Shown here: in pieces, positions 4,711 to 14,973 of the stretch
Numbering within the stretch: the stretch's first letter is position 1
How the letters are laid out: every line of letters starts with the position of its first letter
DNA from: Brooklawnia cerclae
GTDB lineage: Bacteria; Actinomycetota; Actinomycetes; Propionibacteriales; Propionibacteriaceae
NCBI RefSeq assembly: GCF_011758645.1
Contig: NZ_JAAMOZ010000001.1
Coordinates: 372,001 to 436,000 of the forward strand
Length of the DNA stretch: 64,000 nt
Direction of reading: 5' to 3'
Notes under the pieces: model-generated
Seen by the model: the letters and a program-made list of their open reading frames with translations, nothing else
Databases searched by the model: none
Told to the model about the DNA's origin: nothing
Program-made: the position numbers and the translations under genes

Positions 4711-4713
4711 CTG

Positions 4714-4758
4714 GTATCCCCAACCGGATTCGAACCGGCGCTGCCGCCTTGAAAGGGC
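4714..4758. repeat. attL: 45-bp duplicate of the tRNA-Glu 3' part
   Basis: These 45 bases are identical to 14900-14944, which form the 3' part (T arm and anticodon stem/loop) of the intact tRNA-Glu at the other end. The match ends abruptly on both sides. This is the standard footprint of a tyrosine integrase that recombines inside a tRNA gene. The left copy is a tRNA fragment without acceptor 5' half and is not a functional tRNA. Confidence 0.92.
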
Positions 4759-4862
4759 TAGCCGTGGGGCGTTGGCCACGTTTGCTAGTGGTGGGGGCGC
4801 TAGTCAAGTGGCATATGAGTGGTTGGTCAAGTTGGCCAGAATTTGCAAGTTTCGAAAATCCT

Positions 4863-4882
4863 GTGTTCAAACCGTGTTGAAA
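4863..4882 (+). promoter_or_regulatory. Candidate integrase arm-type sites, left end
   Basis: Two direct copies, GTGTTCAAA (4863) and GTGTTGAAA (4874), start 11 bases apart, 105 bases inside the left core. A matching pair with the same 11-base step is found near the right end (14810 and 14821). One helical turn of spacing at both ends fits arm-binding sites of a tyrosine integrase. The assignment is an inference from pattern and position. Confidence 0.45.
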
Positions 4883-4889
4883 AGTGAGA

Positions 4890-4922
4890 CCCCCCGCGCT
4901 CCCGAGCATTGGACGCGGGGGG
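4890..4922 (-). terminator. Terminator for the leftward capsid operon
   Basis: The arms CCCCCCGCG (4890-4898) and CGCGGGGGG (4914-4922) form a 9-bp GC stem, extended inside by TCC/GGA. Read leftward the stem is followed by TCTCACTTTT, a modest T-rich tail. It lies about 90 bases after the last structural gene of the element. Confidence 0.7.
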
Positions 4923-5012
4923 CCTCGGTCGGTGCGAGCAGGTCGGTTGGAGAGAGAAGGACCGCCTTCGCGCGGAAGTAACGAAACGCGTTGACTCGCA
5001 CACGTGTTGGGG

Positions 5013-5396
5013 TTAGGTGACCCGGACGCAGGGGAGCCGACGGGCGACACCCCAGTCGTCGAGCACTGCACCGACGACGGACAGTTCCACCCCGGGCAGC
5101 GCCGGATCTCCGGGTGCGCTGGTGATGATGGCGCGGAGCTCGCCGGCCGGGATCGAGGTATCCATGGGCAGCCGCAACTCGAAGTTGGAGACGGTGAGCG
5201 GTTGCCCGGCGGAGACGGCTTGCTCGAACCTGTCGAGCGACTTGAGCCAAGCCGGGCCCTCGTAGAGGGTGACCCAGTTCGGCGTGATCATGTTCGTCAC
5301 CGGGTCGTACAGCTCGCCGTCCTTGAGCTGGAGGCGTGCCGTGAGTGTCATCGACATGCGGAACTTGCGGCGCAGGACGTTCGACTGTGGTCTCAT
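5013..5396 (-). CDS. Phage head-tail connector-like protein (DUF6093-like)
   Basis: A 127-residue protein and the last gene of the leftward structural operon of the element. It sits where head-completion or head-tail adaptor proteins are found, directly after another small connector gene, and its start overlaps that gene's stop. Residues such as LKDGELYDPVTN and the segment YEGPAW resemble actinophage DUF6093 proteins, which I recall only by sequence style, so the family call is tentative. No signal peptide, membrane segment or enzyme motif is seen. With the capsid present and tail genes absent, its likely role is to close the head and offer a docking surface for helper-phage tails. Confidence 0.55.
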   Translation of the reverse strand: MRPQSNVLRRKFRMSMTLTARLQLKDGELYDPVTNMITPNWVTLYEGPAWLKSLDRFEQAVSAGQPLTVSNFELRLPMDTSIPAGELRAIITSAPGDPALPGVELSVVGAVLDDWGVARRLPCVRVT

Positions 5397-5731
5397 GACG
5401 CTCGCTTCCTCCAGCGGTTGAGTGCTTGCTGCTCAGCCAGCGTGAAGCCGAGGAACGGCGTGCTGACGACCGAGTAGTCGCCGACCTGCTCGCGGACGTT
5501 CTGGGCCGGGTTGGTGACCAGCCGGGCGGTGGCCGTGGTGATCACTGCGGCGATCTCCGGGGCCACGAACCCTAACTCATCGTCGAAGCCCCGGTTGCGG
5601 GTGTAGCCGCGTACGAGGTCGGTTACGAGCTGGACGTGGCGGGTGGCCAGGGCAACCAGCGTGGTGTCGGTGCCCTGGTCGAGAAAGCTCGCCACGTCCT
5701 GCCCGGTCGGGACGGTCTTGTCGAAGCTCAC
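5393..5731 (-). CDS. Phage head-tail connector-like protein
   Basis: A 112-residue, largely helical protein lying between the capsid gene and the terminal connector gene. Size and place match gp6/gp15-type head-tail connector proteins that form the ring under the portal. Ala-rich helices such as TTATARLVTN and a basic C-terminus (NRWRKRAS) are visible. It starts five bases after the capsid stop and its own stop overlaps the next start by four bases, so the three genes are translated as a unit. Sequence alone does not show a specific family with certainty. Confidence 0.6.
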   Translation of the reverse strand: MSFDKTVPTGQDVASFLDQGTDTTLVALATRHVQLVTDLVRGYTRNRGFDDELGFVAPEIAAVITTATARLVTNPAQNVREQVGDYSVVSTPFLGFTLAEQQALNRWRKRAS

Positions 5732-5736
5732 GATGA

Positions 5737-6651
5737 TCAGGACCTGGTGATCCCGGTGATAGTCACGATCGCCTCGGGGTTGAGCGGCGCGGCGTCGTAG
5801 CGGGCGACCACGCGTATTGCTTGCTGGTCGAAGTCGGCGTACCGCTCGGTCAGCACCTTCACCGACGGGGCCAGGTCGCGGGCGACGGCGATCTGGGAGA
5901 AGTCGACCAGTGCCGCCCGGCCGGTGGTGACCTCGGAGACGGTCACGTCGGGCACACGGTTCGAGACGATGACCTGGGAGCCCCAGAGCCGGAACACTCC
6001 GTCGGCGGTCGGGTCGGGGGTCAGTAGGTACTTCGACGAGCCAGTGGCTTCCTTGAGCTTGCGGAGCTCAACGAAGTCGCCAGGCTGCATGATCCACTTG
6101 AGGCTCGACATGTTGACGCCGGCGGCCAAGGCCAGGCCCCATGCGTCCAGCAGGACGTCGAGGTCGAGGGCTCCGGCAGCGTTCACGGTCTGGACTCCGG
6201 AGTAGGCGAACAGCCCCTTGGGCGTCTCGATTCCGTCGCCTCCGGCTGACAGGAACTGCGTGTCGAGCTTTGCGGCGACGGAGTTGACGAGCCGGTCGCG
6301 GATGGCCGCGTCGAGGCTGACGACCGACTGGCGGGCCAGTTCGTTGGAGAAGCGCGTGATGACCTTGACCGACGCCAGGGTCGAGGGCAGCAGGGTCACC
6401 TCATCGAAGTCGATGTCGGCTTCAGGGATCTCCTCGTTCTCCCCCGTGAACGCCAGAGACGAGTCGATCAGGTCGCCGTTCTTCGGGATGCGCAGGGGCC
6501 CGGCGGTGTCGAAGATCCGGGGCCCCGCAGACAGGAACACCGATCGTTCCTGCAGCGGCTGGACAAGGATGCGCTGCACCTGCTCTGCGGTCAGCTCGGC
6601 GGCGGCGGTCGACCCGGCGCCGGCGGTGGTGGTCTGGCTGGAAAGTGCCAT
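5737..6651 (-). CDS. Phage major capsid protein (HK97 fold)
   Basis: A 304-residue capsid protein. After a flexible N-terminus it shows the segment pattern of actinophage HK97-type capsids: a LQERSVFLSAGPRIFDT strand region, the P-loop-like LRIPKNGD, the E-loop region near ENEEIPEADIDFDE, and a late VVARYDAAPLNPEAIV segment. At about 300 residues it lacks a fused protease or long delta domain, consistent with the separate scaffold gene upstream. It should build the head of the element's own particle. A GC-box palindrome about 100 bases upstream (6749-6768) may control it. Confidence 0.88.
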   Translation of the reverse strand: MALSSQTTTAGAGSTAAAELTAEQVQRILVQPLQERSVFLSAGPRIFDTAGPLRIPKNGDLIDSSLAFTGENEEIPEADIDFDEVTLLPSTLASVKVITRFSNELARQSVVSLDAAIRDRLVNSVAAKLDTQFLSAGGDGIETPKGLFAYSGVQTVNAAGALDLDVLLDAWGLALAAGVNMSSLKWIMQPGDFVELRKLKEATGSSKYLLTPDPTADGVFRLWGSQVIVSNRVPDVTVSEVTTGRAALVDFSQIAVARDLAPSVKVLTERYADFDQQAIRVVARYDAAPLNPEAIVTITGITRS

Positions 6652-6748
6652 GAGAATGCTCCTAGCGGTGAGGATTCGGGTGAATCGCCCGGCCGCCAGG
6701 GCCGCGAGCTGTTGGGGGTGCCGGATACCAGACCCGACACCCCCAAGT

Positions 6749-6768
6749 ATATACCCCTGGGGGTATAT
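6749..6768. promoter_or_regulatory. Perfect palindrome ATATACCCC-TG-GGGGTATAT
   Basis: Nine-base arms around a TG centre, in the 122-base gap between the capsid gene and the small gene upstream. A related palindrome (ATACCCC-CTA-GGGGTAT) lies just before the terminase start at 10725-10741. Both resemble copper-sensor CsoR operators (TACCC...GGGTA) in form. They may be regulatory sites for late genes of the element. Confidence 0.5.
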
Positions 6769-6773
6769 GGGTG

Positions 6774-6977
6774 TTAGCGGCGGAAGTGGACTACGCTCTT
6801 GTCCTGCTCGTCGGTCCCGACGAATGTTGCATAGGTGCGCTCGCCGGCGGTCCAGAAGATCGGCCCGGACTCGATCCTGATCTTGCGGGCGGCCAGGTCC
6901 GCGATGGTGGCCTGCAACTCGGCGTCGACTTCGTCGGCTCCGGCCATGTACCCGATCTCGGTAGTGCTGGTGATCAT
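6774..6977 (-). CDS. Small structural-operon protein of unknown function
   Basis: A 67-residue protein starting MITSTTEIGYMAGADEV and ending with a beta-rich stretch (TYATFVGTDEQDKSVVHF). I chose this ATG because it is preceded by GGAGGAGAACGAC, a strong ribosome binding site; the longer open frame upstream is only a shadow of the scaffold gene. It lies between scaffold and capsid, where some phages place a small head-decoration or capsid-stabilising protein. No family is recognised, and that role is only suggested by position. Confidence 0.6.
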   Translation of the reverse strand: MITSTTEIGYMAGADEVDAELQATIADLAARKIRIESGPIFWTAGERTYATFVGTDEQDKSVVHFRR

Positions 6978-7005
6978 GTCGTTCTCCTCCAAGGGTGTCG
7001 TTGTG

Positions 7006-7392
7006 TCAGGCGTTGGCGCGCAGGATTGCGGCCAGGTCCACCGTGCCGGTGTCTGCGGCTGTCGCACCCTGCCCGATGGTTCCGTGCGGTGTGCGGGTGG
7101 CGTAGTGGGGGTGGGCGTCCAGCAGCTCGTCAATGGCGGCGTCGAGCTTCGACCAGTCGTCGAGGATGGCTTCATCGAAGGGCAGGTCGTTGGGGTCGGC
7201 CAGGCGGCCGGTGGCGGCGACCCGGGAGACGAACAGCTCCTTAGCAAGGTCGTCGGACCGCTTGGCCTTCACGCGGGCCTCGGCTGCCTCCTTCCGGAGC
7301 TGTTCGACGTAAGCCCTCGGGAAGGTGTCGGGCTCGGTATCCGGCTCCTGGGGGGCCAGTTCGCCGTCGTCGGTGTTCGTGTTCTCACTCAT
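7006..7392 (-). CDS. Phage scaffolding protein
   Basis: A 128-residue, highly charged helical protein: an acidic N-terminus (MSENTNTDDGELAPQEPD), a coiled-coil core with YVEQLRKEAAEARVKAKRSD, then an Asp-rich helical tail. This is the pattern of gp20-like scaffold proteins encoded just upstream of HK97-type capsids. It would guide procapsid assembly and then be released. AGGAGAGAACC precedes the ATG at 7392, and its first codons overlap the end of the MuF-like gene. No protease gene is seen nearby, so scaffold exit is probably by host proteolysis or escape. Confidence 0.75.
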   Translation of the reverse strand: MSENTNTDDGELAPQEPDTEPDTFPRAYVEQLRKEAAEARVKAKRSDDLAKELFVSRVAATGRLADPNDLPFDEAILDDWSKLDAAIDELLDAHPHYATRTPHGTIGQGATAADTGTVDLAAILRANA

Positions 7393-7942
7393 TGGTTCTC
7401 TCCTCTCCGGTCATGGAGACCGGTTGCTGGACACAACGGCACCCGGTGTGCCGGTGCATGGGCGTGGTCACGAGTAGCTCGCGGCCGTTCGCCAGGCCGG
7501 TGCATACCGGGCACTTAGTCCCGGCCTCCGGCCGTCTGGTCCACTTGGCTTTCGGAGCACGAGCTTGAAGGTGCTCTTGCCAGGCGTCCGACGCGGTGTT
7601 GTACACGGCCGCCCGCATGGTCTTCGCCAGGGTCGTTACGCCCTCGCGCGCGGCCACGGCGTCCCTGAGCGCCGCCACGGTCGACGTGCTGGTGCGGGGC
7701 ACGATGCCAAGCGGCAGGGTGTCAGCGGCAGCCAGGCGGGTCAGCAGCGCTCCGGCGGATACCTCGGCGAGCCCTGCCGCTTGGCGGGCGGTGGCATCGA
7801 CCAGCGCGGCGAGCAGGGTAACGGCCTCGTCGTCGCTCAGCGTGCCGGCGCTGTTCGCCGCGTAGATATCGGAGATGCGATCCTCGGCCCGGTCAGTCAG
7901 GTCGACAAGCGCGTGCTGGTAGTCGTCGATCAGGTCAGGCAT
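7385..7942 (-). CDS. MuF-like phage head morphogenesis protein
   Basis: A 185-residue protein between portal and scaffold. Its C-terminus carries a cysteine/histidine cluster: CPVCTGLANG followed by MHRHTGCRCVQQP, the zinc-like end seen in many MuF/phage minor head proteins. The N-terminal two thirds is helical. Such proteins sit inside or on the head and may travel with the DNA. It overlaps both neighbours by eight bases, consistent with one late operon of portal, MuF-like, scaffold and capsid genes. Confidence 0.7.
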   Translation of the reverse strand: MPDLIDDYQHALVDLTDRAEDRISDIYAANSAGTLSDDEAVTLLAALVDATARQAAGLAEVSAGALLTRLAAADTLPLGIVPRTSTSTVAALRDAVAAREGVTTLAKTMRAAVYNTASDAWQEHLQARAPKAKWTRRPEAGTKCPVCTGLANGRELLVTTPMHRHTGCRCVQQPVSMTGEERTNE

Positions 7943-9254
7943 TGGTGCCCCGGTTCAGCAGGTCGGGCAGGGACGTGGCGAGCTGGTCGAGTGCCTCGGC
8001 GCGGCGGGCCTGCCGTATGGCCTCTATTTCGTCGGTGCTGTAGCCGAGCCGGGCCAGTGCATACGTGGAGGGCAGCAGTCCGGCGGTGTACAGCTTGACG
8101 ACGGCGTCGGCCTCCTGGGCGACGCTCCTTGTCGACGGGTCGGCCCAGCTCACACGGACGTCCAGCGCTGCCGGGTCGGTTCCGGTGCGCACCGCGTGCA
8201 TGAGCCGGGCGACCTGCTCCCACGAGCGTCCGAACGTGGCCTGCCGCGCTTCAGCGCGGGCGGTCAGGCTGGCCTCAGCGGCCCGCAGCGCGTCAGCCGA
8301 AGCGGGCTGATTCGACAGGACCCCGATGTAGTGCTCTGGCAGCGCGGAGACCGCCATGATCTGGCTCGTCAGCACCTTCACCGCCGACTCGTAGCTGGCC
8401 AGGTCGGCGGCATCGAGCTGGCCGAATCGGGAGTCGGGAGCCTCCGACAACATCATCCTGTTGTTCTCGGGATACGGGTTGACCGGGTTGCCAGCCTCGT
8501 CCTCCTCCAGTTCGACGCCGGTCGCCCAGCGTCGGGGACGGCCCGCGTATTCCGAGGCGACCATCAGGTCGCTCAAGATCTTGTTCTGTGCGTCGACCAG
8601 CGGGATCAGGTCGTCGAGTTCCGAGGCGGGAGGGCCCATCAGACGGTCGGAGTTGCGCAGCGGGACCACCGGAACCACCCCGAGCGGATTGGGCAGCGAC
8701 TCGGCCAAGGTGAACCCTGATGTGGCACCGACGGCGTCTGAGTGGAGGCGGTCGATACGGTCAGGCAGGTACAGGACAGCATCGGTGCCCGTCGGCGCAT
8801 CGAGGGGTCCGGTGGTCCACCGCTTCACAGCGGCCGTCACTGCCCTGGTCGCTGGGTCCCGCAGCACCGCGACTTGTTCTGCTGATTCGACGGTGACCAG
8901 CGGGCGTCCGGTGGCATCGGCCCAGACGATCACGAATGCCTCGCCGATGGTCAGGGCTTCGCGGTGCGCCACTGGCGCGAGCTGGTCAAGGTCGTTGGCC
9001 AGCCAGTCGGTCCACAAGGTGGAGGCGAACTGGCCGTCGATGGTGAAGCCGGTGACCCGCAGGCGTTCGGCCAGGGCCGTCACGGCGACCCGTGGGATGT
9101 TCACCGCCATGCGCGAGAACCGGTTCCCGATCGCCGTACGGGCCTCGGGTGCCAGGAACGCCAGGGGCTGGTCGCCGCGATAGTAGCGGTTCAGGGTCTC
9201 CCGGCGGGGAGCGCCGGCGTCGAGCCGGGCGAGCAGTTGTTCGAGTGGTTGCAC
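7935..9254 (-). CDS. Phage portal protein (SPP1 gp6-like)
   Basis: A 439-residue portal protein. Portal features include an early RRETLNRYYRGDQPL, a wing region with VNPYPENNRMMLSEAPDSRF, and the stem/crown helices with LTSQIMAVSALPEHYIG. I chose the GTG at 9254 because AGGAGAC lies directly upstream and the frame further up only repeats the terminase end in another frame. It forms the dodecameric ring through which the terminase packs DNA. It directly follows the terminase gene, the standard order in head modules. Confidence 0.88.
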   Translation of the reverse strand: MQPLEQLLARLDAGAPRRETLNRYYRGDQPLAFLAPEARTAIGNRFSRMAVNIPRVAVTALAERLRVTGFTIDGQFASTLWTDWLANDLDQLAPVAHREALTIGEAFVIVWADATGRPLVTVESAEQVAVLRDPATRAVTAAVKRWTTGPLDAPTGTDAVLYLPDRIDRLHSDAVGATSGFTLAESLPNPLGVVPVVPLRNSDRLMGPPASELDDLIPLVDAQNKILSDLMVASEYAGRPRRWATGVELEEDEAGNPVNPYPENNRMMLSEAPDSRFGQLDAADLASYESAVKVLTSQIMAVSALPEHYIGVLSNQPASADALRAAEASLTARAEARQATFGRSWEQVARLMHAVRTGTDPAALDVRVSWADPSTRSVAQEADAVVKLYTAGLLPSTYALARLGYSTDEIEAIRQARRAEALDQLATSLPDLLNRGTNA

Positions 9255-9267
9255 GTTGTCTCCTGGT

Positions 9268-10722
9268 CTAGAACGAGGCGGCGCGTCTGCGCCGTCGCTG
9301 GTTGTGGAAGGCGGCCCGGTCGAAGGCGACGATGGCCGCCACGGCAAGGTCGATCTTCCGGGGTGAGTGGGCACGGTCTTTGGTAATCACGTCGCCCTGG
9401 GGGGTGCGCTTCGCCACGGCATGGGCAATGTGGGCGGCCAGGCGGGCATCGGCGTCGTGGGTGATGCTCTGGTCGGCCACCGACTGATAGAAGCGGTCAG
9501 TCGCCGGAGCCATGCGGCCCACGACATTGGTCGGCCACTCGATCACCCGGCGTTCGCCGTACCGTTTCGCCCAGCTCTCGATCTCCGAACGCCAGCCCCA
9601 TGGGTCACATGCGAGCTCGACCACATCCCACCTGCCGAACGCCACGTCGACCGCTTCCGACACGTCACCACGCGGAACCCTCCAGCGCGCATCGCCAGGG
9701 TTCTCCCACGCGCCGACCACGAACACGTGGCCGTCGAGGGTGCAGCCGACCAGCGCGGTGGAGTCACCGGACGCCGACCCGTCGAACCCGAGGACGACCC
9801 GCTCACCATCAGCAGGTACGCCACGATCCCGGTCGGCGCAGGCATCCCACGCGCCGAAGGGCAGCCAAGCGTCCGAGCCCGTGACCCACTGCCCGAGCCG
9901 CAATTGCCGGAACACCGGTTCCCGCATCGTCCGCAGCACCGCAGCCATGCCGTCGGCTGCAAGGAAGTCGCCCAGCGCCGGATTGGCGACCGTCCACGCC
10001 TTCCGGTCGTCGACCGCGCACCCGTCCGGCGCCGCGAACTCCCGCAGGTAGAAGGACGGGTCGTCTTCTGTGCGGCCGTGCTCGACCAGCCTCCACATGA
10101 TCGAATCCGGCGTCGCGGCCGGGGTGGATATGGCCAGCGTCAGCGACTCCGGACGCTTGCCCGAAACCGAGGTCACCGCTTCCCAGACCTCGGCAGTGAC
10201 CACGTGGAGCTCGTCGACGATCAGCAGCGACGGGTCCCAGCCGTGCAGTGCCGCAGGGTCCGCCGGCAGGGCGATCATCGTCGCGTCGTTGTGCGGAACG
10301 ACCAGCTTGTCCTTGAAGATCTGGCACCGTGCGGCCAGCTCCGGGTTCAGCTCAACCATGCGCCGAGCCATCGAAAGTGCGATGTTGGCCTGCCGTTGGT
10401 CGGATGCCACCACGAGCACCTCGGCCGATGGGGGCCCGCAGAACAGCTCCGCCACCGCCAGTGCAGCGGCCAGGGCAGTTTTCCCGTTCGCTCGCGGCAA
10501 CGAGACCAGAGCCGTCCTCACGCCGGGTGCGAACGCGCCGGTCACAATCTCCTTCTGCCACGGCCGCAGGCGGAACGGCTGCAGTGCGCCAGCCCCTTTC
10601 GGAGTGATCACGAACGTGTTGATGAATTTCATGCGCCGCTTCGCCCGATCACGAGGCCAGCCCGTGAAGTCGAGCGGCTCGGCGGTCACAGGAGCCTTCG
10701 CGCCAGCCCTCAAGCCTGCCAT
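9268..10722 (-). CDS. Phage terminase large subunit
   Basis: A 484-residue packaging motor. The ATPase domain carries a Walker A-like LPRANGKT (residues 75-82) and a Walker B LLIVDELH with acidic pair near 170-171. The C-terminal half has the Asp-rich nuclease fold (VLGFDGSASGD, near residue 290). The small terminase subunit is not recognisable in the element, but an HNH nuclease gene lies immediately upstream and overlaps, as in cos-type phages that use HNH plus TerL. The start codon sits three bases from a conserved palindrome. It should pack the element's own genome into its own capsid. Confidence 0.9.
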   Translation of the reverse strand: MAGLRAGAKAPVTAEPLDFTGWPRDRAKRRMKFINTFVITPKGAGALQPFRLRPWQKEIVTGAFAPGVRTALVSLPRANGKTALAAALAVAELFCGPPSAEVLVVASDQRQANIALSMARRMVELNPELAARCQIFKDKLVVPHNDATMIALPADPAALHGWDPSLLIVDELHVVTAEVWEAVTSVSGKRPESLTLAISTPAATPDSIMWRLVEHGRTEDDPSFYLREFAAPDGCAVDDRKAWTVANPALGDFLAADGMAAVLRTMREPVFRQLRLGQWVTGSDAWLPFGAWDACADRDRGVPADGERVVLGFDGSASGDSTALVGCTLDGHVFVVGAWENPGDARWRVPRGDVSEAVDVAFGRWDVVELACDPWGWRSEIESWAKRYGERRVIEWPTNVVGRMAPATDRFYQSVADQSITHDADARLAAHIAHAVAKRTPQGDVITKDRAHSPRKIDLAVAAIVAFDRAAFHNQRRRRRAASF

Positions 10723-11111
10723 ATATACCCCCTAGGGGTATTCTGACCGAAACTTTCCCTGGAATGCGGCTCCCGGGCAAGGGGCTTTACCCCTACCCCC
10801 CTGGGTTGGTCTCCACGAGCGGCTCCGCGTGCCCGGTTGCAGGGTCCGCAGACGACCTCAACGTCGGCACCGAGCCGCAAGGGCAGGTGGGCGGCGACCC
10901 GCTCCCACGCGCCAGGCAGGTGGTCGAGCTGGAGGTCATCTGTACGTCCGCAGTCCGTGCACCATGGCTGCAGCTGGCGAGCCCTCCGGCTCAGCTTGTC
11001 CCAGCGCGTGTCGTACCCGCGCGCCCTCGATGGGCGACTGGTGTCGGTGTGCAGCTGGCAGCGGGCGCCCTCGGTCAGGGCCCCGCAGGTCAGGCATGGC
11101 TTGAGCGTCAC
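10710..11111 (-). CDS. HNH endonuclease (phage packaging-associated)
   Basis: A 133-residue HNH nuclease. It has four CxxC-type pairs or half pairs: CLTCG at the N-terminus, CTDCG near residue 50, the catalytic LQLDHLPG, and CGPCNRARG closing the zinc knuckle. HNH genes next to terminase are known to stimulate cos cleavage in many siphophages. I chose the GTG at 11111, which overlaps the ATPase stop as GTGA; the ATG seven codons upstream is less likely. Its 3' end overlaps the terminase start by 13 bases and contains a GC-box palindrome. Confidence 0.85.
   Translation of the reverse strand: MTLKPCLTCGALTEGARCQLHTDTSRPSRARGYDTRWDKLSRRARQLQPWCTDCGRTDDLQLDHLPGAWERVAAHLPLRLGADVEVVCGPCNRARGAARGDQPRGVGVKPLAREPHSRESFGQNTPRGYIWQA
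10725..10741. promoter_or_regulatory. Palindrome ATACCCC-CTA-GGGGTAT before the terminase
   Basis: Seven-base perfect arms around CTA, ending three bases before the terminase start codon and lying inside the 3' end of the HNH gene. It matches the capsid-upstream palindrome at 6749-6768 in core and flanking TATATA. A shared regulator for the packaging and capsid blocks is possible. Confidence 0.45.
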
Positions 11112-12274
11112 GCTGCGCCTCCTTGATCGCATGCTGGATGAGTCGTAGCGCCGTCACCGAGGTCGACCATGGGGAACCCGCAGACGGTGCAGCGCTTCTG
11201 TGGGGGTGTCACACCTGTCACGCCTGTCACGTCTGGGGGTGCTCCCGTGGTAAACGTGACACCCGTGACAGGTGTGACACCCCCCACAGGGGAGGGCACA
11301 TACAGCCCCGTTGCCCTACGAGCAATGCGCCCCGAGTCGTACAAGCGCTTTAGGTACTGCCGGGCCTTTTCGGTGGTGAACCCCAGAGCATCTACCACGT
11401 CAGCCGCCCGCACACCATCGGGCCGGGTCGCGACAAGAGTGAGGATGCGCGTTGTGTCGTCGCCCAAGCCCTGGGTCGCTTCAGCGTCCGCCGCAAGCTT
11501 CGCGGCAGCGTCCAGGGAGCCGCCCGCCAGGTGCCAGCGGCAGCCGTCCATGCTCACGGCGTATTCGGCCTCGGTCACGTCGCGGCCGGTCACGAGGAAC
11601 TTTCCCGACGCCTCGTTGCGTCTTCGGTTCAGCACAACGATGGTGTCGGCAGCCCCGGCGATTCCGTTGGTGCCGGAGACCGTGTTCACGAAGTCGTCGG
11701 ACGCGGCCTTGCGGTCATGGTGGAGCACGAGCATGGCCATGCCAGGCCGGGCGTCAGCAATCGACTTCAACGCCCCGGCGACCCGGTAGTCGCGCATGTA
11801 GTCGGATTCGCCGGGCCGTGCAGGCGGCAAGATTTTCCCCAGCGTGTCAAGGATCACCAGCGGCCGGGGGAGCCGCTCTGGCAGTGAGTCGAGCCACGCC
11901 GATATCGTCGGCTGCACGGTTCCGGGCACAACCCGCGTCATGTAGTTCAGCGCTGCCGGGATCGGCTCGCCGCCAAGCAGCTTGCGGGCCCGGGACTGCA
12001 ATCGCCGGTCGCCGTCTTCGAGTGCCAGCAGCAGCACGGGCCGCCACGACACCGGGATGCAGCCGACCGCCCGGCCGCCTGTGGCCGCTGCCAACGCGAT
12101 GTCGAAACTCAGCCAGGATTTCCCGATCTTCGGGCCCCCAACTAGCAGCGTCATGCCCTCGGGCACGAGCCCGGGCACGATCCACGTGAGCTCAGGGAAG
12201 ACCTGCTCGTCGAGCCACGCACCCGTCCGCAGACCCGCTAGCAGGTTCGGCTCTTCGGGCACCTTCTCGATCAT
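11108..12274 (-). CDS. RepA/RAD55-like AAA ATPase (replication helicase)
   Basis: A 388-residue RecA-fold ATPase with Walker A GGPKIGKS (residues 46-53), a Walker B-like PLVILDTLGK near residue 138, and a LVLHHDRKAASDD segment near 185 typical of plasmid RepA-type hexameric helicases. A winged-helix region follows (VRAADVVDALGFTTEKARQYLKRL), and the C-terminus ends with a CTVCG zinc-like motif. A Val-Thr-Pro-rich linker lies between these and is encoded by a long inverted repeat at 11198-11289. It likely drives replication of the excised element. The ATG at 12274 overlaps the upstream stop (ATGA). Confidence 0.8.
   Translation of the reverse strand: MIEKVPEEPNLLAGLRTGAWLDEQVFPELTWIVPGLVPEGMTLLVGGPKIGKSWLSFDIALAAATGGRAVGCIPVSWRPVLLLALEDGDRRLQSRARKLLGGEPIPAALNYMTRVVPGTVQPTISAWLDSLPERLPRPLVILDTLGKILPPARPGESDYMRDYRVAGALKSIADARPGMAMLVLHHDRKAASDDFVNTVSGTNGIAGAADTIVVLNRRRNEASGKFLVTGRDVTEAEYAVSMDGCRWHLAGGSLDAAAKLAADAEATQGLGDDTTRILTLVATRPDGVRAADVVDALGFTTEKARQYLKRLYDSGRIARRATGLYVPSPVGGVTPVTGVTFTTGAPPDVTGVTGVTPPQKRCTVCGFPMVDLGDGATTHPACDQGGAA
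11198..11289. repeat. Long inverted repeat inside the ATPase gene (candidate origin)
   Basis: Arms of 35 and 36 bases (11198-11232 and 11254-11289) flank a 21-base loop and match at nearly every position; the core of each arm is TGTCACACCTGTCACG or its complement. Within the arms the unit TGTCAC(g/a)CC repeats, giving iteron-like steps. In the protein it encodes a low-complexity Val-Thr-Pro linker. Replication origins embedded in the initiator gene are known in phages and plasmids; that role here is an inference. Confidence 0.6.
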
Positions 12275-12561
12275 GCGGCCTCCCCAAGGACGGCAGCATC
12301 GAGTTCGTCGATCAGGCCGTCGGGCAGGCCGAAGTTGGCGATGAGCCAGGCGTGGGCCCGGCACTGCTCGGCGGCCTCGTCGGCCCACGGCGTGCCCACG
12401 GTCTCCAGCTCGGCGGCTCGGCGGCACCAGTAGGCGGGCAGCGCTTCGCGGAACGCGTCCACGATCACCGCGAGCGCCATCGTCTGCACCAGGTCCGGCA
12501 GGTTGATCAGCGCGTTCACCACGTCACGGGACGGCGCTGGGCCGGTGTCGTATCTCTCCAT
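12271..12561 (-). CDS. Hypothetical protein of the element's early operon
   Basis: A 96-residue, mostly helical, acidic protein (MERYDTGPAPSRDVVNALIN...). I recognise no family. AGGAGCTCGTTG precedes the ATG at 12561, and its stop overlaps the ATPase start, so it is translationally coupled to the replication gene. There is one Trp-Cys (YWCRRAAELE) segment but no paired metal motif. By position it may be a replication accessory or a packaging specificity factor, but nothing in the sequence decides this. Confidence 0.65.
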   Translation of the reverse strand: MERYDTGPAPSRDVVNALINLPDLVQTMALAVIVDAFREALPAYWCRRAAELETVGTPWADEAAEQCRAHAWLIANFGLPDGLIDELDAAVLGEAA

Positions 12562-12575
12562 CAACGAGCTCCTAA

Positions 12576-12872
12576 TTAAGTTGTGATCTCCACGTTGCGG
12601 ATGGCGTCGTACGCCGTCGGGTCTGAGTAGCCGCCGCGCTCGTTTCGGCAGCCGCGTAGGTGCTGGGGCAGTGCGGCGACCACCCGCAGCTGTCTTGCGG
12701 CCCAGTCGAGGGCCTCGGGTGTGGCTGAGCCGTAGCGGATGATCGCCGCGCCGGCCATCTTCCGCGCCTGCGATCGGCTCGAGTAAGGGGCCAGCCGCTG
12801 CAGCGCCTGCTCGAGGGCGCGCCTGTCCGTGCCCTCCGCGATCCAGCGCGGAGGGATAACCGCTTGGGTCAA
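12576..12872 (-). CDS. Hypothetical protein with TTG start
   Basis: A 98-residue basic protein with the segment WIAEGTDRRALEQALQRLAPY and many Arg. The likely start is a TTG at 12872, overlapping the stop of the excisionase-like gene as CTTGA; no ATG or GTG is better placed, since the frame upstream only shadows the HTH gene. No family is recognised. The basic helical character would suit DNA binding. It forms the second gene of the early leftward operon. Confidence 0.55.
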   Translation of the reverse strand: MTQAVIPPRWIAEGTDRRALEQALQRLAPYSSRSQARKMAGAAIIRYGSATPEALDWAARQLRVVAALPQHLRGCRNERGGYSDPTAYDAIRNVEITT

Positions 12873-13054
12873 GCCGCGTCCCCTTCGAACTTGGCATCGA
12901 GCCATGCGAGCACGTCGTCCTCGCGGTATACGACCCGGCGGCCAAGCTTCGCGCTTCGGGGCCCAAGGCCCATGTGGCGCCAGTAGCGCAACGTCGCCTC
13001 GGGCACCCGGATTTGCTCGGCGACCTCCGGCGTAGTCAGCAGTTTCGCGGCCAC
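12869..13054 (-). CDS. Excisionase-like MerR/AlpA-type HTH protein
   Basis: A 61-residue winged-helix protein: LTTPEVAEQIRVPEATLRYWRHMGLGPRSAKLG... followed by RRVVYREDDVLAWLDAK, the compact form of excisionase/AlpA-type DNA-binding proteins. In satellites an AlpA-like activator often heads the leftward operon and turns on the replication and packaging genes. GGAGGAGAC lies close before the ATG. It diverges from the XRE repressor over a 136-base region with palindromes, which looks like the lysogeny/induction switch. Confidence 0.82.
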   Translation of the reverse strand: MAAKLLTTPEVAEQIRVPEATLRYWRHMGLGPRSAKLGRRVVYREDDVLAWLDAKFEGDAA

Positions 13055-13190
13055 GTCTCCTCCTAGTGACTTGTTGGTACATGCAGTATTGCATGACTAT
13101 GTGATGTACGAAAGCTAACACACCGAAACTGCAAATGGGTTATGAGTCAAGTCGAAGATTCGCGACTATGGTTGACACGACGACGCAACG
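13055..13190. promoter_or_regulatory. Divergent switch region between excisionase and repressor
   Basis: This 136-base intergenic region, distinctly AT-rich for the window, holds the palindrome CATGCA-gtat-TGCATG (13080-13095) and an outer pair GTACAT (13077) and ATGTAC (13104). A TTGACA box occurs at 13172-13177, close to the repressor start. It must carry both divergent promoters and is the natural operator of the XRE repressor. Individual -10 boxes cannot be assigned with confidence. Confidence 0.6.
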
Positions 13191-13727
13191 TTGCCCATGA
13201 TTGAATGCGTGAGTGAATCGCTAAATGATGCAGACGCCAACTTCGTCCGAAACATGAAGGCTGCACGCGAGGCGCGGGGGTGGTCTCAAGCGGTGCTGGT
13301 CGACCATCTGGAGCTTCTGGGCGTCGAGACCCTCAACCAGTCGACCGTCAGCCGGATCGAGAAGGGCGAGCGTGATGTTCGACTGCCCGAGGCTCGCGCC
13401 ATTGCCAAAGTGTTCAGTGTCAGCTTGGACACTATGTCGTCCGGCCCTGAGAAGTTCGAGAGTTACCTGGACTGGCAACGGGTGTATGGCGCATTCCGGG
13501 ACGCCAGGAAAGGGCTGGCTCGGGCAACGGTGGAATACGAGGATGCCCGCCGGACGCTGGCTGAGTACCTCCGCGAGCCAGGCGTCCGGCTCGCGGAGGA
13601 CTTCCGGGACAAGCTCATGGACGACGTCGAGCGGACGGCGAGCGACGAAGCGCATGAGGCTGAGATGAGGTATCGCAGCGACTCCAGCCATACCGCCAGC
13701 GCCGCATACGACGAGCCCCCATTCTGA
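13191..13727 (+). CDS. XRE-family repressor of the element
   Basis: A 178-residue protein with an N-terminal HTH_3 domain (about residues 15-70: MKAAREARGWSQAVLVDHLE ... STVSRIEKGER) and a long helical C-terminus rich in Arg, Glu and Asp. It is divergent from the excisionase-like gene and directly upstream of the integrase, the position of master repressors such as Stl in SaPI-type satellites or cI in phages. The start may be the TTG at 13191 or the ATG at 13197. There is no LexA-type Ser-Lys peptidase signature, so induction by self-cleavage is unlikely; release by a helper-phage protein is possible. Confidence 0.82.
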   Translation: MPMIECVSESLNDADANFVRNMKAAREARGWSQAVLVDHLELLGVETLNQSTVSRIEKGERDVRLPEARAIAKVFSVSLDTMSSGPEKFESYLDWQRVYGAFRDARKGLARATVEYEDARRTLAEYLREPGVRLAEDFRDKLMDDVERTASDEAHEAEMRYRSDSSHTASAAYDEPPF

Positions 13728-13728
13728 G

Positions 13729-14838
13729 ATGGCCACCGTCGAACGGCGAGTCAGCGACCGGACTGGGAAAACGGTCTACGTCGTGCGCTACCGGACTCCT
13801 GAGAGGGCCTCGCGGCAGAAGACGTTCAAGCTCCGGCGCGACGCGGATCGATTCGTGACCAGCATCGAGTCGTCGAAGATGACCGGGGCGTTCGTCGATC
13901 CCGCCCGGCAGGAAGTGAGCGTCGCCGACTGGTGCGACAAGTGGCTTGCGGCGAAGACCAACATCGGGCCAAAGACGCGAGAGCGCTACGAGGGCATCCT
14001 TTCCGCCCAGATTCGGCCGAGGTGGTCGACGGTGAAGCTCAAGGACGTCAGGCACGCGGATGTGCAGACGTGGCTCGCTGGCCTCGATCTCGCTCCCGCG
14101 TCTGTGCGGAAGGTCCACCGTGTCCTGTCGCAAGCGATGGACTTCGCGGTCAAGGACGGACGCTTGGCGGTGAATCCTGCCTCCGGGGTGAGCCTGCCCC
14201 GGGTCGAGTCGACGGAGAAGCCGTTCCTCAGCCACGAGCAAGTAGCCGAGCTGGCGAAGCGGTGCGGGCCCGGCGATGGGCTGATCGTCACGTTCCTTGC
14301 CTACACCGGCCTTCGATGGGGCGAGATGGCCGCGCTTCGGGTGAAGCGGCTCGATTTCCTCCGCCGGCGCATCGTGATCGCCGAGTCTGTCACCCCGGTG
14401 AAGGGGGTCATGACGTTCGGCCCGACGAAGGGCCACGAGCGCCGCGAAGTGCCGATGCCCAGATTCCTCGCCGCCGATCTGTCGAGGCTCGTTGATGGCA
14501 AGGGTCCCGACGATCTGGTGTTCACGGGGGAGCGGGGAGCGCCGATGCGCTCGCAGGCGTTCCAGCGGCGGTCGCTGACCGCTGCCTCCACCGCCATGGG
14601 GCTGGAGGGCTTCACGCCGCACGAGCTCCGCCATTCGGCGGCGAGTCTGGCCATCGCCTCAGGCGCGGACGTGAAGGTCGTGCAGACGATGCTCGGGCAT
14701 AAGAGCGCAACGATGACACTCGACCTCTACGGGCATCTTTTCGGCGACCGTCTCGACGTGGTTGCCGACGCCATGGACGTGGCGCGCACCGAGGCACTCT
14801 CGAAGCCGCGTGTTGGAAATGTGTTGAAATTGGCCTAG
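13729..14838 (+). CDS. int: Tyrosine site-specific integrase
   Basis: A 369-residue phage-type integrase. The AP2-like arm-binding domain (residues 1-50) and a SAM-like core-binding domain (about 60-160) precede the catalytic domain with the full set Arg196 (TGLRWGE), His298-x-x-Arg301 (HELR), His324 (LGHKSA) and the nucleophile Tyr334 (LDLYGH). It begins one base after the repressor stop. It lies next to the intact tRNA-Glu, which is the attachment site. Its last codons contain two GTGTTGRAA repeats that may be arm sites. It should integrate and, with the excisionase, release the element. Confidence 0.95.
   Translation: MATVERRVSDRTGKTVYVVRYRTPERASRQKTFKLRRDADRFVTSIESSKMTGAFVDPARQEVSVADWCDKWLAAKTNIGPKTRERYEGILSAQIRPRWSTVKLKDVRHADVQTWLAGLDLAPASVRKVHRVLSQAMDFAVKDGRLAVNPASGVSLPRVESTEKPFLSHEQVAELAKRCGPGDGLIVTFLAYTGLRWGEMAALRVKRLDFLRRRIVIAESVTPVKGVMTFGPTKGHERREVPMPRFLAADLSRLVDGKGPDDLVFTGERGAPMRSQAFQRRSLTAASTAMGLEGFTPHELRHSAASLAIASGADVKVVQTMLGHKSATMTLDLYGHLFGDRLDVVADAMDVARTEALSKPRVGNVLKLA
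14810..14829 (+). promoter_or_regulatory. Candidate integrase arm-type sites, right end
   Basis: GTGTTGGAA (14810) and GTGTTGAAA (14821) are direct repeats stepped by 11 bases inside the last codons of the integrase, about 70 bases from the right core. They mirror the pair at 4863/4874. Confidence 0.45.
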
Positions 14839-14856
14839 TGGCCGTCCGGGCAAGAC

Positions 14857-14895
14857 GAAACCCCCTAGCCAATTGTGCTCTGGCTAGGGGGTTTC
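14857..14895. terminator. Strong terminator after the integrase
   Basis: Perfect 15-bp arms GAAACCCCCTAGCCA (14857-14871) and their reverse complement (14881-14895) around a 9-base loop. Each arm has an A3 or T3 end, so it can act in both directions. It separates the integrase from the tRNA-Glu and the chromosome. Confidence 0.85.
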
Positions 14896-14899
14896 TCTC

Positions 14900-14944
14900 G
14901 TATCCCCAACCGGATTCGAACCGGCGCTGCCGCCTTGAAAGGGC
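14900..14944. repeat. attR: 45-bp core within tRNA-Glu
   Basis: Identical to 4714-4758 over 45 bases and forming the 3' part of the intact tRNA-Glu. Marks the right boundary of the integrated element. Confidence 0.92.
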
Positions 14945-14973
14945 GGTGTCCTAGGCCGCTAGACGATGGGGAC
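14901..14973 (-). tRNA. tRNA-Glu (TTC), integration target
   Basis: The minus strand gives acceptor GTCCCCA pairing with TGGGGAT (with a G-U closing pair), anticodon loop CTTTCAA with anticodon TTC in stem CCGCC/GGCGG, and T stem GCCGG/CCGGT around TTCGAAT. Discriminator A at 14901. The element entered through the 3' half and restored it, so the tRNA remains intact. Confidence 0.95.

Follow-up and report, generated by a model that had tools for sequence, protein, structure and literature searches.

The 64,000-nucleotide stretch of Brooklawnia cerclae DNA analyzed here (the window) carries, at positions 4711–14944, an element of ~10.2 kb inserted at tRNA-Glu that is very probably an integrated, helper-dependent satellite, which would build its own head and package its own DNA but take its tail, and probably its lysis functions too, from a helper. 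As judged from gene content, the best reading is that it works like a capsid-forming PICI (cf-PICI); strict membership is not claimed because no small terminase (TerS) was found.

The element is bounded by two attachment-site copies. The distal copy (4711–4758) is a part of tRNA-Glu, and the other (14897–14944) overlaps the intact tRNA-Glu(ttc) gene (14900–14973, minus strand), as located by repeat comparison and a tRNA call. The two agree at 47 of 48 nucleotides (98%), which bears out the tRNA-Glu duplication proposed in an earlier, sequence-only reading of this DNA. In translation, the left flank encodes a putative cation-efflux-like protein and the right flank a putative SH3-repeat-like protein. 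In six genus-mates the 13.8–14 kb examined includes tRNA-Glu once, with the head module absent; an exact empty site was sought in the genus-mates and not found, the left-flank gene lying far from the tRNA side there. In one genus-mate an integrase of 69% identity lies close to tRNA-Glu, inside an uncharacterised island. PICI att sites are never occupied by prophages, according to PMC6092414. The window element is seen in its integrated form only.

Gene identities were assigned by Pfam and PHROGs profile searches, and likely starts by ORF scoring. Two genes are on the plus strand: a tyrosine integrase (13729–14838; PF00589; phrog_1, E 1.7e-72) and a divergent HTH_3 repressor (13191–13727; PF01381; phrog_8). 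All others are on the minus strand, opening with an excisionase-like HTH_17 regulator (12869–13054; PF12728, E 6.2e-11; phrog_66, E 3.8e-10) and two small ORFs without assigned function, both called by ORF scoring (12576–12905, with only a short phrog_6568 match, and 12271–12561, with no PHROG match). The RepA-like AAA_25 ATPase that follows (11108–12274, likely start 12274, frame open from 12427; PF13481, E 9.2e-21) is a predicted replication protein. An HNH endonuclease of predicted packaging type (10710–11132; phrog_144, E 7e-9; no Pfam match) precedes the terminase large subunit, TerL (9268–10722; PF03354 and PF20441; phrog_9, E 3.4e-97), and an SPP1-type portal (7935–9254, likely start 9254, frame open from 9374; PF05133, E 5.5e-43). 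The next gene (7385–7942) had been called MuF-like; it keeps the position of a MuF or minor head protein, but the label is weak, with no Pfam match and a PHROG match, to the ‘head maturation protease’ family phrog_13257, at E 0.0011 only. The head scaffolding protein (7006–7392; phrog_233, E 7.5e-6) is separated from the HK97-type major capsid protein (5737–6651; PF05065, E 8.6e-39; phrog_10) by a small ORF without assigned function (6774–6977, by ORF scoring), whose longer frame (6774–7247) weakly matches a connector family (phrog_2377, E 0.041). Two connector genes close the operon: con1, a head–tail adaptor of the Ad1 type (5393–5731; phrog_137, E 1.4e-5), and con2 (5013–5396), which matches a family with no annotated function (phrog_13779, E 5.4e-5). 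Apart from the MuF label, the profiles agree with the gene assignments of the sequence-only reading, and the intact, tightly packed frames that it described are seen here as reading frames open throughout the element, with neighbors overlapping by a few bases.

Equally, its statement that tail, lysin and holin genes are missing stands, in that none was matched among the element's scanned genes in either database. By the same searches, TerS was not found among these genes, the two small ORFs included, although a diverged TerS could escape detection, and none of them is a confident head maturation protease. A phrog_57 match of the excisionase (E 0.0024) was read as an HTH cross-match and not as TerS.

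PMC10690885 and PMC11389934 describe cf-PICIs as encoding major capsid, portal, head–tail connectors, TerL, TerS, HNH and a head maturation protease, without tail genes, and their particles as own capsids joined to helper tails. The window element is likewise integrated, shares capsid, portal, connectors, TerL and HNH with them, and lacks tail genes, for which it would depend on a helper. It differs, when compared by description, in that TerS was not found, the protease is a weak candidate and cos is predicted directly between HNH and TerL. The cf-PICI gene content proposed earlier is supported by the shared genes; with no TerS and no clear protease found, the element is cf-PICI-like without every published feature. 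As outlined in PMC6092414, classical PICIs share with it the order of att sites, int, divergent regulators, xis and replication genes, but are without phage structural genes, whereas the window element has a head module and no lytic gene was found in it. Similar Actinomycetota candidates are already published, as predictions. The Mycobacterium candidate PICIs and phiRv1/phiRv2, compared through their description in PMC10654092 only, likewise combine integrase and capsid, with tyrosine-integrase types at tRNA genes. The Streptomyces satellites MulchRoom and MiniFlayer, as presented in PMC10690885, also carry TerL, portal, scaffold, capsid, adaptor and HNH, and MulchRoom has an integrase, as the window element does; they differ in that terminal repeats of ~1 kb take the place of cos, TerS is present and a primase is absent, and that paper sets them apart from predicted Actinomycetota PICIs.

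The core gene order is common to relatives in many actinobacterial genera, some of them in Mycobacterium and Mycolicibacterium genomes, and family elements occupy many different att sites. Near full-length portal matches of at least 41% identity occur in 13 of the 391 genomes of the order, the element's own genome included, whereas the best tailed-phage portals found reach 38%; five loci with portals at 29–33% are tailed prophages, in which tape-measure and major-tail proteins were matched. In a portal tree, 69 of 71 de-replicated family portals fall in one clade, with L142 and L136 outside. The entry MT836167 was rejected as a packaged satellite: it is an unannotated 12.25-kb faecal ‘Bacteriophage sp.’ whose portal, at 34%, groups with phage portals. 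Att repeats are spaced 9,590–11,664 bp apart in 23 of the 32 distinct relatives examined, and there con1 lies 144–1,574 bp from the att repeat, a gap too short for an ordinary tail module. The other nine yielded no att repeat, although one of them (L044) was improperly tested by the script. The sequence-only reading had suggested a search of related genomes for the tail-less order at tRNA-Glu and had held that a full prophage at this site in close relatives would count against a satellite; the order does recur, at many att sites, and the head-module relatives examined show no adjoining tail module among the best 25 of 117 and the best 25 of 36 PHROG families. Two elements in one genome (G255) share 5,649 bp at 99.4%, yet their integrases and sites differ, and a second genome (G529) has a similar sharing pattern; modules appear to have been exchanged recently among elements. 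PADLOC, run on 43 proteins (23 of 33 scaffold–capsid ORFs and 20 of 235 upstream ORFs), returned one match each to seven models, untraced to genes.

Packaging is predicted to start at the HNH–TerL junction. Three IMG/VR contigs of relatives (L089, L140 and L158) are permuted, with con1 followed by int, carry joined att ends and terminate at this junction; together with the conservation of the junction, they suggest a cos site whose overhang measures 10–11 nt. Drawing on the relatives' junction pattern and these termini, the window's cos region is placed at 10747–10804 (minus strand), in the 3'-terminal part of the HNH frame, with a CCAGGGG block from 10804, an HNH-side arm to 10770, a predicted 11-nt 3' overhang at 10769–10759 and a TerL-side arm from 10758. 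Of the 86 non-redundant junctions, 28 share a 45/46-nt spacing, where the null gives a mean of 4.9 and a maximum of 12 in 500; more than half of the junctions lack it. The count leaves out a GGC-starting stretch that opens L087 and L130, far from TerL, and a CCA[C/G]GGG string in L139, 21 nt from the end and within a terminal repeat. A scan of IMG/VR for read-through of the L140/L158 junction returned only L158 and L166 (the L140 contig again), so the missing junction bases are inferred from other relatives. Within the phage set, TerL has its best-covered relatives (~36%) among phiC31-type actinophages. In phiC31 and Lilbooboo, complete tailed phages unlike the window element, the last gene (HNH in Lilbooboo) sits at the right end of the genome and the terminase at the left; Lilbooboo has TerS before TerL, whereas none was found in the window element. 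Neither last gene resembles the window HNH by tblastn, and the CCA[C/G]GGG block is absent near both genome ends.

The AlphaFold2 model of con2 (pLDDT 75.9, pTM 0.65) matches phage neck proteins in Foldseek, such as the SaPI1 neck (9mu3) and the SPP1 connector complex (7z4w), and con2 is predicted to be a tail-facing stopper of the head-closure type. With one window query per gene against 42 relatives picked by portal, capsid and contig size, capsid and adaptor were each recovered in all 42 and con2 in one. It is not the sole variable gene, since the MuF-position gene (8/42), the ATPase (2/42), the repressor (7/42) and the excisionase (16/42) were also poorly recovered. A further count covered 61 candidates after con1, of which L061, L062, L161, L143 and L162 were later removed as non-connectors; recovery counted this way favors con1, because members were picked by their con1 match. 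Nor is con2 always the last gene: G255 has a phrog_501 match in the scaffold–capsid interval, and L131 and L132 have a con2 match before scaffold. Of seven con2 representatives that lie outside the window's group, five match phrog_501 (E 0.016 or better), and rapid divergence within a single old family may therefore explain the variation instead of exchange. The con2 family is also common in control prophages, with 5 members among 60 proteins taken from five of them. A broader reading is put forward tentatively, and we regard it as somewhat doubtful in its entirety: an old actinobacterial satellite family of ~10 kb would combine a fixed core (HNH, TerL, portal, scaffold, capsid, adaptor) and a TerS-free HNH–cos–TerL packaging start, with a 10–11-nt overhang, with a stopper, and the MuF-position gene, swapped to fit each host's helper tails. 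Confidence in stopper exchange is lowered by the variation of the MuF-position gene and by the chance that the con2 groups are distant relatives.

Other origins were weighed against a satellite. The element could be a decayed prophage, left immobile after a tailed phage had shed the genes for its tail and for lysis, and its head module is indeed arranged as in actinophages such as Persistence. Decay is unlikely, however, because a narrow size is conserved at many different att sites, with the same boundaries across many genera; the window frames are open, and boundaries and size are kept in the 23 relatives noted above. The exception is a minority of seven relatives with a split match in a core gene (L048, L092, L105, L111, L121, L137 and L148), which points to decay or misreading of some copies. 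The gap in identity between tailed-phage and family portals and the recency of module exchange also speak against decay, as does selection. In five close pairs dN/dS is 0.02–0.30, with the exception of con2 in one pair (0.58), and by this measure the head genes are under purifying selection. Between the window element and its nearest relative, L077, where divergence makes the method unreliable, the values are 0.26–0.27 for TerL and portal, 0.59 for capsid, 0.85 for con1 and 1.32 for con2. The earlier preference for a selected unit over a decayed prophage is thereby upheld, and its proviso that head genes should not be disrupted is supported by the close pairs but not by the relatives with split genes.

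A minimal phage able to do without a helper, whether it has just a head or also a short tail that escaped recognition, would account for the complete head-closure genes and the few small ORFs without assigned function; it is quite improbable, given that no lysis gene was found, that an ordinary tail module would not fit, and that con2 resembles neck stoppers and has family members in the resident tailed prophages. Selection that keeps head genes without tails would also suit a particle maker domesticated by the host, similar to a gene transfer agent, but the integrase, excisionase and att duplication, the patchy distribution across the order and the relatives' contigs with joined att ends make it very improbable.

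As a helper-dependent satellite, the element would be kept in tRNA-Glu by its repressor and integrase until an active helper turned on the divergent operon. Xis and Int would then excise it, the AAA ATPase would drive its replication, and HNH and TerL would cut cos at their junction. Capsid, scaffold and portal would form a procapsid, filled with one ~10 kb unit, and adaptor and stopper would close the head and present a docking face for a helper tail. Induction, replication and cos cutting are inferred, as are the size of the head, the capture of a tail and reliance on helper lysis. The host genome has two prophage regions with two tape-measure genes, and both tailed prophages carry con2-family (phrog_13779) genes, which among 15 family-bearing genomes occur only in the window's own. 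Outside satellites, phrog_501 occurs in G255, G369, G177 and G687, and satellites match it too only in G255. The two resident tailed prophages are candidate helpers.

The finding strengthens the case that satellites which borrow tails form a conserved family within Actinomycetota, and it gives an exact predicted packaging site within the window. It also singles out the stopper gene, which may decide which helper tails fit, so that how head-making satellites change helpers becomes testable in one small element, in a host with two candidate helpers.

The element lies between two direct-repeat copies of its attachment site (att), a distal one at 4711–4758 and another at 14897–14944 that overlaps an intact tRNA-Glu gene; the copies are identical at 47 of 48 nucleotides, their starts are 10,186 bp apart, and the host genome carries the element once. 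Pfam and PHROGs name an integrase, repressor, excisionase, AAA_25 ATPase, HNH protein and terminase large subunit (TerL), together with an SPP1-type portal, scaffold, HK97-type capsid and head-tail adaptor (con1, 5393–5731, minus strand). Among the element genes scanned, none matched a tail, lysin or holin family, and the sequence-only reading of head genes without tail or lysis genes stands. Most of the gene list in that reading was recovered as well; its MuF-like label (7385–7942, minus strand) is weak, and its second connector, the predicted tail-facing stopper con2 (5013–5396, minus strand), matches phrog_13779 and has no annotated function in either database. The element probably works like a capsid-forming PICI, providing its own heads and packaging and taking its tail from a helper. 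It differs from that class in having no TerS recognisable, and no protease confidently called, by Pfam and PHROGs, so strict membership is not claimed. The kind of element is already known: PMC10690885 reports predicted Actinomycetota PICIs, and PMC10654092 reports Mycobacterium candidates, whose induction and transduction, its authors state, have yet to be established.

Searching one genome per species with the portal returned 18 loci, with record titles naming Arachnia, Mycolicibacterium, Mycobacterium, Janibacter, Tsukamurella, Nocardia, Skermania and an uncultured actinobacterium. The order HNH, TerL, portal, scaffold, capsid, con1, whose recurrence in related genomes had been proposed as a check, is kept in these loci wherever the contig permits; 15 also match the integrase and nine the excisionase. 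Within the taxonomic order of the host, a portal match of any kind occurs in 58 of 391 genomes, and a near full-length one of at least 41% identity in 13, its own included, while four of 396 genomes in the phylum sample, again with its own, pass E 1e-60. In a portal tree built from the 71 family members left after de-replication of 109, together with 12 portals of phages or prophages, 69 members group in one clade (support 100/99), with L142 and L136 outside it; a long branch makes the position of the root uncertain. Mycolicibacterium rhodesiae JS60 holds at least three family elements (L033, L045, L046). At seven loci (L048, L092, L105, L111, L121, L137, L148) core-gene matches are fragmented, which points to decay or misreading of some copies.

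Direct repeats of at least 17 nt flank 23 of 32 distinct relatives (10 of 15 in one set and 13 of 17 in another, leaving out L053, which repeats L032), often inside tRNA genes and in one case at a tmRNA gene; none was found in the other nine, among them L044, which the script tested improperly. Repeat-to-repeat spans in relatives are 9,590–11,664 bp (10,186 in the window), and con1 lies 144–1,574 bp from the repeat (635 bp in the window), so that an ordinary tail module would not fit between them. Five comparison loci with 29–33% identical portals, four of which run off the end of the stretch read, consist of tightly packed phage operons that include long frames resembling tape-measure genes, and PHROGs on 60 of their 73 downstream proteins gave tape-measure and major-tail families. 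The same search on 124 of 159 downstream proteins of 31 family elements, plus con2 of the window, gave matches to head closure (8) and head-tail adaptor (5) and, for the most part, to families typical of host genes, with no tail family among the matches listed (25 of 117 families). Beyond con1 in 16 IMG/VR contigs (45 of 54 proteins scanned), none appeared among the matches listed either (25 of 36 families).

IMG/VR scans found 43 loci by portal and 50 by capsid, with three common to both; most of the loci are on contigs of 4–13 kb, and one, L076, is 100% identical to the window in both genes. Terminal repeats of 77 nt (L139) and 117 nt (L145) are as expected of circular contigs. Three contigs, L089, L140 and L158, have a permuted order: the integrase follows con2/con1, with ~300–340 bp between called frames, so both att ends are joined. 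Across 3.9 kb of the integrase half, L140 and L158 show 97.6% identity, and the permuted contigs thus represent two lineages more than three. Both ends of all three lie at the HNH-TerL junction, where L151 and L153 also start and L157 ends. The junctions of many relatives carry a CCA[C/G]GGG block with GG[C/A] placed 45 or 46 nt after it, a spacing present in 28 of the 86 junctions that remained when 104 were de-replicated (shuffled mean 4.9, maximum 12 in 500) and absent from the other 58. Contigs end 35 nt past CCA (36 in L157) and start on GGC (L089 starts one base before it); among 35 distinct rows selected by CCA[C/G]GGG, spacing and AGGC, the intervening bases show C at 77–83% in three positions starting at the contig ends and G at 77% at -5. 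This pattern suggests a cos site with a 3' overhang of 10–11 nt, which would have been lost in library preparation, a step that removes such overhangs. In the window, the predicted overhang is at 10769–10759 on the minus strand, followed by GGAAAG where others have GGC. Phages phiC31 and Lilbooboo, whose TerL is ~36% identical to that of the window, have the terminase at the left end and the last gene (gp30 and HNH, respectively) at the right; their records hold the same ten bases at opposite ends. Their genome ends lack the CCA[C/G]GGG block, and their last genes gave no tblastn match to the HNH gene of the window. We found neither this predicted cos site nor the stopper pattern of the family, which follows, described in open-licence papers.

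Searched with a single window query for each gene, the 42 relatives of sufficient length that remained after de-replication (from 48) yielded HNH, portal, capsid and con1 in all 42, TerL and scaffold in 41, integrase in 36, excisionase in 16, the MuF position in 8, repressor in 7, AAA in 2 and con2 in 1. Among 56 elements with a connector-like ORF past con1, a comparison biased toward con1, all 1,540 con1 pairs were similar at 1e-4 and 270 con2 pairs (17.5%). Representatives of seven other con2 groups had phrog_501, 763, 1531 or 10309 as best matches, one having none, and five touched phrog_501. The low pair similarity and differing families suggest that con2 is either exchanged or diverging fast. 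Its predicted model (pLDDT 75.9) matches neck proteins, including the SaPI1 neck, phage NF5 neck and SPP1 connector complex, at TM 0.39–0.64; the match with the best E-value is a Shigella protein that looks unrelated, and no more than two matches pass E 0.001. The stopper gene sometimes sits between other head genes rather than last (G255 C1:1627006–1627257 and 2083253–2083504), and in L131 and L132 it precedes the scaffold gene. Between scaffold and capsid, L061–L065 carry extra ORFs at one site, some on the opposite strand; PADLOC on a set of 43 accessory proteins, drawn from these elements and from others, gave single matches to PDC-S47 (three models), LmuA, RTasMBL, PDC-M48B and Avs1a.

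In five close pairs (L051/L052, L056/L057, L119/L120, L120/L123, L131/L132), dN/dS was 0.02–0.30 where computable, except for con2 of L119/L120 (0.58). Values were higher in more diverged pairs: 0.12–0.31 in L157/L158; 0.15–0.60 in L126/L129; in L140/L158, 0.21–0.25 for TerL, portal and con1 against 0.63 (capsid) and 0.87 (con2); and 0.26 for TerL, 0.27 for portal, 0.59 for capsid, 0.85 for con1 and 1.32 for con2 between the window and L077. Two further pairs had zero differences in the genes compared, and one pair gave no result. The two elements of genome G255 have 5,649 bp in common at 99.4% identity, from HNH to past con1, but carry different integrases and occupy different sites; a comparable pair is present in G529. 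Six genus-mates have tRNA-Glu once in the 13.8–14 kb read, with no head module there. One of them, G356, has within an island near tRNA-Glu an integrase 69% identical to that of the window (L192:4282–5364) with an excisionase match. The host genome has three more integrase matches with stop codons (C1:808825, 948765 and 2246001).

Two prophage regions of the host genome, whose tape-measure frames are 972 and 982 aa long, are candidate helpers: C1 at about 2.082–2.127 Mb (L204–L206) and C3 at about 199–237 kb (L195, L193, L194). By tblastn, con2 is the one structural gene of the window that matches both, at 27–28%; in addition, there is an integrase match in the second region and a weak match to the portal in the first. 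Among 15 family-bearing genomes, phrog_13779 occurs in the host genome alone, in con2 and both prophages, and it was also found among the five comparison prophages (5 of 60 proteins). In this one genome, the distribution of the con2 family is consistent with a stopper matched to local tails.
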